This document shows, piece after piece, positions 47,951 to 50,667 of a DNA stretch of 64,000 bases. The notes under the pieces are model-generated. The model had not been told where the DNA came from and ran no database searches. It saw only the letters and a program-made list of their open reading frames with translations. Position 1 is the first letter of the stretch. Each line of letters starts with the position of its first letter. The stretch is from Dyella sp. AtDHG13 (GTDB lineage Bacteria; Pseudomonadota; Gammaproteobacteria; Xanthomonadales; Rhodanobacteraceae), in the NCBI RefSeq assembly GCF_003201105.1, contig NZ_QICJ01000003.1:434001-498000 (forward strand), read 5' to 3'. A program made the translations under genes and the position numbers.

Positions 47951-48931
47951 ATGAACCCCAGAGAGGCTGTTGCCACCCTGCAAACACAGATGGAAGCGTC
48001 CATCATCGGCCAGCGCGACCTGATCCGGCAGATGATCGTCGGCTTGCTGGCGAATGGACACCTGTTGCTGGAAAGCCTGCCCGGCCTCGCCAAGACGCGC
48101 GCGGTCAAGAGCATGGCCAGGAATCTCGACACCGAGATGCGGCGCATCCAGTTCACGCCCGACTTGCTGCCTTCGGACATCACCGGCACGGAAGTGCTGC
48201 ATCAGCAGGACGGCCAGAACATCTTCCAGTTCCAGCCCGGCCCCATCTTCGGCAACGTCATCCTGGCCGACGAGATCAACCGCGCGCCGGCCAAGGTGCA
48301 GGCAGCCCTGCTGGAGGCCATGGAGGAGCGGCAAATCACCGTGGCAGGCACCACGCACAAGATGTCCAACCTGTTCATCGTGATGGCCACGCAGAACCCC
48401 ATCGAACAGGAAGGCACCTACCCCTTGCCGGAGGCGCAGCTGGACCGCTTCCTGCTGAAGGTGCTGGTGGACTATCCGGATCGGGACAGCGAGATCGGCG
48501 TGCTGGAGCTGGTGCGCAACGAAGAAGTGGGAGGCTCGTCCAGCGCCGGCGGCGCGTCCACGCAGCGCATCGAGCCGGCCAGCATCTTCGCGGCGCGTGG
48601 CGAAATCCATGGCGTGCATGTGGCGCCGGCCATCGAGCAATACATCATGGCGCTGGTGGATGCCACGCGGCATCCCGCTTCGTACGACAAGACGCTGGCG
48701 ACGTGGATCCAGATCGGTTCCAGCCCGCGCGGCGGCATCGCCCTGGAACGCACCTCGCGCGTCCATGCATGGCTGGAAGGGCGCGACCACGTCACGCCGG
48801 ACGACGTGCGCGCCATGGTTCATCCCGTGCTGCGTCACCGCATCATGCTTTCCTATGACGCCAGCGCCGAAGGCATTCGCGCCGATCAGGTGATCGACAG
48901 GATTCTGGAACTGGTGGCCGTGCCAGCTTGA
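47951..48931 (+). CDS. MoxR-family AAA+ ATPase
   Basis: 326 residues from ATG 47951 (GAGAG just upstream); the frame is open earlier but only as a shadow of the preceding gene. Walker A is ESLPGLAKT, with Ser in place of the usual first Gly, Walker B is VILADEINRAPAKVQAALLE, and VMATQNPIEQEGTYPLPEAQ then LDRFLLKV is the MoxR signature. MoxR ATPases act as chaperones with VWA-domain proteins, and DUF58, DUF4381 and two VWA genes follow directly. First gene of the Bat-type operon. Confidence 0.94.
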   Translation: MNPREAVATLQTQMEASIIGQRDLIRQMIVGLLANGHLLLESLPGLAKTRAVKSMARNLDTEMRRIQFTPDLLPSDITGTEVLHQQDGQNIFQFQPGPIFGNVILADEINRAPAKVQAALLEAMEERQITVAGTTHKMSNLFIVMATQNPIEQEGTYPLPEAQLDRFLLKVLVDYPDRDSEIGVLELVRNEEVGGSSSAGGASTQRIEPASIFAARGEIHGVHVAPAIEQYIMALVDATRHPASYDKTLATWIQIGSSPRGGIALERTSRVHAWLEGRDHVTPDDVRAMVHPVLRHRIMLSYDASAEGIRADQVIDRILELVAVPA

Positions 48932-48939
48932 GGTACGGG

Positions 48940-49890
48940 ATGACGACAGTACAGGCCAGCGACATCGGTACGGTCTACGTGACTCCCGCGCACCTGGCGC
49001 GCATGGAGTACGACGCGCGCCGCCTGCGCACCACGCCGCATCGCCCGCATCACAGCGTGCTCGCCGGCCGGCATGCCTCGCGCCTGCGCGGACGCGGGCT
49101 CAATTTCGAGGAAATCCGCGCCTACGTGCCCGGCGACGACATCCGCCACCTCGACTGGAAGGTGTCGCTGCGCGTGGGGCATGCCATGGTGCGCTCGTAC
49201 ACCGAAGAGCGCGACCGACCCGCGCTGTTCGTGGTGGACCAGCGCATATCGATGTTCTACGGCACCCGGCGCGCGATGAAATCCGTGGTCGCGGCGGAAG
49301 TGGCCGCGCTGGGAGCGTGGATGACGTTCCAGGCGGGCGATCGCGCCGGCGCCGTGGTGTTCGACGACAGCCAGATCCACAGCCTGCGCGCACGGCGCAG
49401 CCGCTCCAGCGTGCAGGCCGTGCTGGGAGCGCTGGCGCGCAGCAACCAGGCGCTGCGTGCCGACAGCCCCGCGCGCATCAACCCCGCGCAGCTGGATGCG
49501 GCGCTCCGCGCGGCGCTGCATCTGGCCACTCACGATTACCTGGTCTGCATCGTGAGCGATTTCCTCGGTGCGGACGAGGAGACCCTGCAACTGATCCGCG
49601 AGCTGGCGGCACACAACGATGTGGTCGCCGCCCTGGTATTCGATCCCTCCGCGCGCGCCGTGCCCGACAGCGGCAAGCTCGTCGTGACTGAGGGCGAATT
49701 GCAGGTGGAGCTCGATTTCGGCCGCAAGACCATTCGCGAGCCGCTCAGCGCGATGTTCGACCAGCGATTGCAGCAGACCGTGGATCTCGTGCAGCGCTGC
49801 GGCGTGCCTGTGCTGGCGATCGACACCGAGCAGCCTACGCTGCTGCAGATGGCGCGCATGCTCGGCCACTTTGCGCAGATGCGGGGTTAG
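48940..49890 (+). CDS. DUF58 domain protein of the MoxR-VWA operon
   Basis: 316 residues from ATG 48940 (GAGG 8 nt upstream, overlapping the MoxR stop region). The DUF58 core GRGLNFEEIRAYVPGDDIRH followed by LDWKVSLRVGHAMVRSY is intact, then a VWA-like fold with FVVDQRISMFYGTRRAMKSV. DUF58 proteins are standard partners of MoxR ATPases. Its TAG stop (49888-49890) is the first three bases of the palindromic element that fills the gap to the next gene. Confidence 0.93.
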   Translation: MTTVQASDIGTVYVTPAHLARMEYDARRLRTTPHRPHHSVLAGRHASRLRGRGLNFEEIRAYVPGDDIRHLDWKVSLRVGHAMVRSYTEERDRPALFVVDQRISMFYGTRRAMKSVVAAEVAALGAWMTFQAGDRAGAVVFDDSQIHSLRARRSRSSVQAVLGALARSNQALRADSPARINPAQLDAALRAALHLATHDYLVCIVSDFLGADEETLQLIRELAAHNDVVAALVFDPSARAVPDSGKLVVTEGELQVELDFGRKTIREPLSAMFDQRLQQTVDLVQRCGVPVLAIDTEQPTLLQMARMLGHFAQMRG

Positions 49891-50160
49891 GGATGCTCTG
49901 TTCTATCCAGCGCGGGTGGCATGATGTCCCCGACGCCCGCAGGGTGTGGGGCGGGACGCAGCCCAGGCTGGTTGCCTGGGCAAGTCGCGCACCGCGGCCT
50001 GCGGGCGTTGGGGACATCACCCGCAGGGCCGGCTCTGTTTGTCCGCCGCTGCGCGCCGCGCTGTCTCGACAGGCCACCAGCCTGCCTTCGCCAGCGCAAC
50101 ACGCAGCAACGGACAAACAGAACCGGTGACACCCACGTTGAATAGATCAGAGCATCCCTA
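49888..50160. mobile_element. MITE-like nested palindromic element
   Basis: 273 bp bounded by a perfect 13-bp inverted repeat, TAGGGATGCTCTG at the left and CAGAGCATCCCTA at the right, with pairing continuing imperfectly for about 21 bp more. Inside are two long hairpin arms: 49923-49943 with 50000-50019 (GATGTCCCCGACGCCCGCAG type, enclosing GCCCAGG/CCTGGGC) and 50029-50052 with 50102-50125 (CTGTTTGTCCG type, enclosing CTGTC/GACAG). The result is a three-way, cloverleaf-like fold. TA at both ends fits a TA target duplication as in mariner/IS630-type MITEs. No transposase is encoded. Confidence 0.75.
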
Positions 50161-50163
50161 CGC

Positions 50164-50667
50164 ATGTACTGGCTTGCCGATCCCCAGAAAATGGCGTCGA
50201 TTGCGGATCTCAAGGACATCCCCGCGCCGCCGCCGGTTTCCTGGATGCCGCAGACCGCGGGCTGGTGGATCGTCGGATGCATCATCCTGGCGGCGGTGCT
50301 GGCCTACGCGCTGTGGCGATGGCTCAGATGGCGTCGCAATCGTTACCGTCGCGAAGCGCAGGCCGAACTTGCCGCCATCGAGCGTGCCGTGAGTGATCCG
50401 GCCATGCGGAGCGAAGCGCTGGCGGCCATCCCGGCGCTGGTCAAGCGCACCGTGCTCGCCTGGGCGCCGCGTCCGGAAGTGGGGCCGATGAGTGGCGAAG
50501 CGTGGCTGCGCTACCTCGATGGCACCTATGCCGCCGGCGGCTTCGTGCAGGGGCCGGGACGGCAGCTCGACGCGCTGGCCTATGGCGCGAAAAGCATCGG
50601 CGATGACGAACTGTCGTCGCTCATGGCCTTGTTGCATCAATGGATCGACGGCCATGTTGCAGCTTGA
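50164..50667 (+). CDS. DUF4381 domain protein of the MoxR-VWA operon
   Basis: 167 residues. MYWLADPQKMASIADLKDIP then APPPVSWMPQTAGWWIVG is the typical opening of DUF4381, followed by one membrane helix (about 33-52) and a basic cytoplasmic tail with LAAIPALVKRTVLAWAPRPE and GEAWLRYLDGTYAAGGF. Its start lies 3 bp after the palindromic element and has no good ribosome site of its own, unless part of the element serves. It overlaps the next VWA gene by 14 bp. Confidence 0.9.
   Translation: MYWLADPQKMASIADLKDIPAPPPVSWMPQTAGWWIVGCIILAAVLAYALWRWLRWRRNRYRREAQAELAAIERAVSDPAMRSEALAAIPALVKRTVLAWAPRPEVGPMSGEAWLRYLDGTYAAGGFVQGPGRQLDALAYGAKSIGDDELSSLMALLHQWIDGHVAA

Follow-up and report, generated by a model that had tools for sequence, protein, structure and literature searches.

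A putative IS5-type MITE with a covarying cloverleaf core between two operon genes of Dyella sp. AtDHG13

Between the DUF58 and DUF4381 genes of Dyella sp. AtDHG13 lies a 267-bp element, at positions 49891-50157 of the window (the whole 64,000-nucleotide stretch of DNA that was analysed), which is very probably mobile and carries IS5-type ends. We read it, with a probability of about one half, as a non-autonomous IS5-type MITE whose core persists because its arms would work as structured RNA. The usual view of MITEs is that of decayed transposons whose interiors are passengers. In this case the interior shows covariation and a strand polarity that persists in two families differing in their ends, and it is the interior that looks selected. 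This raises a testable question, namely whether small bacterial repeats persist through effects on host transcripts.

Results

The element and its operon

According to Pfam, the operon runs in the order MoxR-type AAA, DUF58, DUF4381, VWA, VWA+TPR and finally a gene that matches BatD and DUF7939 only below the Pfam cut-offs. The Pfam-assigned genes on either side of the element are both on the forward strand: DUF58 upstream (48940-49890; the open frame starts at the TTG at 48928 and our script picked 48940) and DUF4381 downstream (50164-50667). The preliminary description, made from the sequence alone, had placed an element with perfect 13-bp terminal inverted repeats at 49888-50160, and this palindrome is present, with termini TAGGGATGCTCTG / CAGAGCATCCCTA. 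Comparison with other copies nevertheless sets the boundaries of the element proper at 49891-50157 (forward strand, ends GGATGCTCTG / CAGAGCATCC) and assigns the outer TAG and CTA to the target site. The left tetramer, TTAG (49887-49890, forward strand), is found at the same position in the element-free relative L066, and its TAG (49888-49890) is the DUF58 stop codon, as had been proposed. The right tetramer, CTAC (50158-50161, forward strand), appears altered when judged from the comparison of copies and the L066 alignment; the DUF4381 ATG at 50164 does lie 3 bp past 50160, as described.

Within these limits, the alignment and the consensus structure define an outer stem whose left half is the 31-nt terminal inverted repeat (49891-49921, alignment columns 1-31) and whose right half also has 31 nt (50127-50157), both on the forward strand, enclosing arm A (98 nt, 49922-50019, forward strand), a short middle hairpin CCCGCAGGG (50020-50028, forward strand) and arm B (98 nt, 50029-50126, assigned to the reverse strand). 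In strand folds arm A reaches -90.2 kcal/mol on the top strand and -74.3 on the bottom one, and arm B -84.8 kcal/mol on the bottom strand and -60.0 on the top one. The RNA of 49888-50160 has a predicted fold of -201.3 kcal/mol, where shuffled sequences average -119.6 (z -16.4; 0/200 shuffles as stable). This fold comprises the outer stem, both long arms and the short hairpin in the middle, in agreement with the cloverleaf previously suggested. The interval 49500-50600 had no Rfam match at gathering score (sub-threshold hits only, mostly microRNA-like hairpins), no promoter or terminator consensus was found in 49700-50300, and the search for plasmid and phage carriers of the element gave no match.

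The insertion adds 267 bp between DUF58 and DUF4381. The gene chain had been described as otherwise overlapping, which is only roughly right: at 14 orthologous junctions the DUF58 stop and the DUF4381 start are 3-5 nt apart. In AtDHG13, CAGAGCATCCCTACGC remains ahead of the DUF4381 start, with no obvious ribosome-binding site, and we infer that translation of DUF4381 may be weakened by the insertion.

Empty sites and target sequence

Among 19 other genomes of the same genus, 14 had an orthologous DUF58 gene, and all 14 DUF58/DUF4381 junctions lacked the element; the other five had only a distant paralogue and are uninformative on the site. Empty sites in orthologous operons, which the preliminary description had proposed to look for, were thus found. 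In L066 the empty junction is GGGGTTAGCCGCATG, where TTAG marks the point of insertion. The window copy is not cleanly flanked: its right edge reads CTAC, followed by a gap of two bases relative to L066, so that with TTAG on the left the flanks are not an exact duplicate. A clearer case is the copy in L166, with CTAG on each side: the relative L296 carries just one CTAG there, and the alignment is gap-free on both flanks. Both neighbouring genes of this site end at the element, hence one CTAG probably served both stops before insertion. The junction of L338 likewise shows a single CTAG where L053 has a copy, with more diverged flanks, and in the empty-site comparison for the second copy, L002, the left flank was not conserved. 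L021 and L028 were first suggested to be one shared site, which was not borne out on checking.

Over the 91 distinct copies gathered (see below), 40 have identical 4-bp flanks (CTAG 27, TTAA 12, CCAG 1), against 0/91 ten bases out, and YTAR is seen at 116 of the 182 edges but at 2/182 ten bases further out. YTAR is reported as the target site of IS5 (PMC10359306). Nearly all identical MITE flanks (39/40) are palindromes, for which duplication lengths of 2-4 bp are indistinguishable, and in none of the 13 copies with one non-palindromic YTAR flank did the two flanks match better as direct repeats than as inverted ones. The transposase-bearing elements differ, with 10 of 13 identical flanks non-palindromic (TTAG or CTAA) and 3 palindromic, in a set where L101 has weak ends and the search favoured identical and YTAR flanks. 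Either the MITE would use palindromic targets only, or its outer edge would have turned palindromic after insertion.

Gene context was studied for the 87 copies with at least 350 bp on each side. By our own codon-usage script, which makes stop-codon counts approximate, 22 of the 87 directly abut a predicted stop and none lies inside a predicted gene. Since YTAR ends in TAA or TAG, an insertion at a stop keeps it, the left copy of the target retaining the stop preceded by C or T. The "exact fit" of the element to the DUF58 stop codon therefore mostly follows from the YTAR target, and a simple account of such elements at stop codons is that the target contains TAA or TAG. A special preference for stop codons was considered and rejected: stops make up 16-24% of available YTAR sites versus 29-30% observed, at most a weak excess, with p values of 0.47, 0.054, 0.26 and 0.017 under four settings whose background was restricted to intergenic gaps of up to 300 or 600 bp. 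An initial expected stop fraction of 4.6% proved unsound because the gene finder left long unassigned stretches.

Ends, transposases and distribution of copies

The element ends GGATGCTCTGA match those of IS5-like elements encoding a DDE transposase. Transposase-bearing elements with these ends were found in L042 (genome G012; 1153 bp), L093 (1188 bp) and L094 (1196 bp). The L042 protein matches Pfam DDE_Tnp_1 and DUF772, a protein type which we take to be that of the IS5 group. At E <= 1e-60, homologues of this transposase occur in 13 of 101 genomes, including one of 20 of the same genus. At E <= 1e-3 the draft genome of AtDHG13 contains no homologue of this helper, the same query matching G012; this counts against mobilisation of a MITE in trans. 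The mobile repeat envisaged earlier is upheld by further copies and empty orthologous sites. Its proposed assignment to the mariner/IS630 or Correia type is not supported, because the same-ended elements of 1.15-1.2 kb encode DDE_Tnp_1/DUF772 and carry 4-bp YTAR duplications; TA is present on both flanks of 54/91 copies, and the transposases found with these ends are of the DDE_Tnp_1/DUF772 type. A related element, bounded by GGAGGGTCTGAACAAGTC, gives 14 matches in G039, a genome of the same order; many of them score equally, so the element looks recently active there.

The proposed search for further copies succeeded both in the same genome and in relatives. The AtDHG13 draft (5.1 Mb, 32 contigs) has three near-complete copies, the window copy included, the other two being 99% and 94% identical to it, as well as a 57-bp copy with little beyond the outer stem and a 124-bp copy. 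Matches at E <= 0.001 were obtained in 22 of 61 genomes, AtDHG13 included. A search of the named genome collection with the exact 18-base end hit 113 stretches; among the matches listed (80 of 113), 77 belong to Dyella, Rhodanobacter or Frateuria. When at most one mismatch is allowed, 57 of 233 genomes of the family and 13 of 26 genera carry this end. From 102 paired ends we removed 10 spanning more than 340 bp (transposase-bearing or chance pairs) and the chance pair L052, which left the 91 distinct copies (49-329 bp), mainly from Dyella and Rhodanobacter; they were recruited by similarity to the window element or by the exact 18-base end, and diverged copies are under-sampled. In title and abstract searches of the open-licence PMC literature we found no description of this repeat family.

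The smaller copies keep the outer stem, with the arms absent, single or shortened. Copies reduced to the outer stem occur repeatedly, so the element would not seem to require its arms in order to move. An arm-less 73-bp form with a similar interior is present at several sites in Dyella subtropica (L125, L158, L183, L213 and L219; also L196), a recurrence that suggests movement without arms. In L212 (3705-4851) two MITE copies lie close by, and the 516 bp that follow one copy equal a stretch preceding the other, owing to the overlap of the loci between them. At L199:4847-5036, L208:1870-2059 and L200:5933-6162 the arm tip bears an additional long hairpin starting GTAGGCTGGGAT, as if nested in the MITE; this hairpin resembles a GTAG-type REP pair.

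Covariation in the core

We aligned the 55 of 91 copies that have two arms (262-300 bp) and recovered a consensus of outer stem, arm A, short middle hairpin and arm B, with arms of about 98 bp. Compensatory changes, another check proposed at the outset, were abundant. Two-sided changes affect 75 of 101 pairs and 96.4% of cells pair, with 0/500 shuffles reaching any measure; cells with a two-sided change number 755 versus 245.5 in shuffles (0/500). Shifting partners by 1-3 columns lowers pairing to 32-41%. A G.A mismatch near the junction is retained in 54/55 copies. Arms A and B are inverted relatives of each other (score 30.8 versus 16.0 shuffled) and have the tip CAGRCTGGYYGYCTG in common, found within one mismatch in 42/55 and 47/55 copies, respectively.

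The single orthologous pair of copies that we found shows 10 differences, five of them in paired columns and all one-sided; two of these changes are wobble on the sense strand of arm B and one breaks it. Mismatches are fewer in copies whose flanks are intact than in the others (2.8 versus 4.2, p 0.0024; strand-aware 2.1 versus 3.0, p 0.087), as if pairing decayed at resident sites. Both observations, the one-sided changes and the lower pairing without intact flanks, speak against a role of the fold at each site.

Strand polarity of the arms

Arm A is more stable on the top strand in 53/55 copies (mean 13.1 kcal/mol) and arm B on the bottom strand in 55/55 (mean 14.6 kcal/mol); the outer stem alone has no bias (strand difference 0.8 +/- 4.5 kcal/mol). 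Each arm is thus predicted to fold better, by about 10-15 kcal/mol, on the strand that leads from its own terminus towards the centre of the element. In a mixed set of 12 copies, four of which recur in the sister set described below, the same sense was obtained for arm A in 11/12 and for arm B in 12/12. The polarity is due to wobble pairs: in the union of both strand folds, read on the top strand, arm A has 188 G-U versus 56 A-C cells and arm B 19 versus 210. Column sign tests on this union gave p 0.06 for arm A and p 0.002 for arm B; for pairs found from both strands their outcome was weak, at 7:5 (p 0.77) and 5:13 (p 0.10). In the stricter set, columns that swap pair type stand 1:4 against the sense reading in arm A and 9:2 for it in arm B. 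It is mainly the distal halves of the arms that carry the polarity, and some of it is inherited, given that the copies share ancestry and each arm is an inverted copy of the other.

Relative to tandem neighbour genes, 20 copies have the same orientation and 25 the opposite one, and the mirrored layout of the arms would suit an element without fixed orientation. These patterns suggest that hairpins of RNA (or of single-stranded DNA) are under strand-specific selection, in mirror image for the two directions. Folding of the arms on a definite strand is likely to be selected, with RNA as the simplest carrier. The structured RNA of the preliminary description is therefore retained in part: compensatory changes and polarity make selection on arm folding probable, but the structure is a property of a mobile family and its insertion is absent from the 14 other junctions.

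Sister families with other ends

Several loci whose similarity lies mainly in the arms carry different ends, GGCAACACTGACTAAGTA, commonly flanked by TTAA on each side; a looser sister group has ends such as GAGCCTGTTCAATA. The GGCAACACTGACTAAGTA pattern, with at most two mismatches, occurs in 14 of 61 genomes. Among 20 copies fetched, nine have TTAA on both sides, 18 exceed 255 bp and 16 have two separable arms. In the 18 long copies, two-sided Watson-Crick changes affect 42 of 99 pairs. In those with two separable arms the polarity is the same for arm A in 16/16 (10.2 kcal/mol) and for arm B in 16/16 (14.1 kcal/mol). By this comparison, the same core is kept under different terminal repeats.

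Discussion

In the IS5-type MITE with functional arms that we favour, a transposase supplied in trans would move the element by its ends. A transcript entering from either flank would meet, as its first arm, a hairpin of about 98 nt in the well-folding sense. This sense arm could act as a portable 3' end of the upstream message, that is, as a stabilising, processing or insulating point, and insertion beside genes would thereby be tolerated in either orientation. In the operon, the element would separate the DUF58 and DUF4381 messages and abolish the close gene spacing. A bolder version, which we hold to be rather unlikely, makes the core a mobile two-way RNA insulator: the mirror-image hairpins would be conserved independently of the ends and combined with different terminal repeats, presumably of different transposases, being selected because the first arm met by a transcript, whichever side it comes from, folds correctly.

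The most serious competitor, plausible though short of probable, is an ordinary IS5-type MITE with passenger arms, whose palindromy would be renewed by hairpin-templated repair or template switching rather than by selection, with a wobble polarity inherited from an ancestral inverted duplication. The inverted relationship of the arms (30.8 versus 16.0) fits such an origin, as do the one-sided changes in the sole orthologous pair and the location of the polarity in the distal half of the arms, and the palindromic flanks in 39/40 identical cases suggest an outward spread of the palindrome. Repair should however remove the G.A mismatch, which is kept in 54/55 copies, and a polarity of similar size is retained in the family with other ends. 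Selection might also act on single-stranded DNA hairpins during replication or transposition. G.T pairs are tolerated in DNA hairpins also, and on each strand it is the 5' arm that folds better, but DDE elements are not known to need long single strands, and copies with only the outer stem recur; we consider this improbable. A riboregulator that evolved in the DUF58/DUF4381 operon to tune its two halves would account for the location between two operon genes and for the very stable fold; as an origin it is refuted, and overall highly improbable, given the 14/14 other junctions without element and the 99% identical copy elsewhere in the AtDHG13 genome, although the host may have put the element to use later.

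The MITE of our preferred reading resembles the IS5 family and its derived MITEs in the ends it has in common with the 1.15-1.2 kb DDE_Tnp_1/DUF772 elements and in its YTAR sites, the latter being reported for IS5 (PMC10359306). It differs from IS5-derived MITEs in that its interior is a conserved cloverleaf and not a deleted transposase gene, and from IS5-type elements in that its flanks are nearly always palindromic while those of the IS are mostly not. Correia/NEMIS of Neisseria is likewise a small intergenic repeat folding by its ends, whose RNA has been suggested to be processed by RNase III (PMC2229807); it is set apart by its description there, which mentions no long inner arms, and by other ends and another host. 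The CIR repeats of Caulobacter and Brucella, documented in the same source, have two linker-joined arms conserved between genera, but are described there without terminal inverted repeats, whereas the arms of the present element sit within an outer stem and its empty sites support mobility. REP/BIME of the GTAG family form inverted hairpins with G-T pairing in the stems, taken as a sign of an RNA role in PMC3733652; REPs, however, measure 20-40 bp and are tied to RAYT tyrosine transposases, unlike the 98-nt arms and IS5-type ends observed here.

Finally, four genomes of the same genus (L044, L048, L050 and L051, from G000, G002, G004 and G006) share a lone unpaired end, GGGATGCTCTGATCT(A/G)TTCGGGG, in an equivalent position downstream from a regulator-like gene; this end is conserved above its surroundings and is perhaps an old element end put to use.
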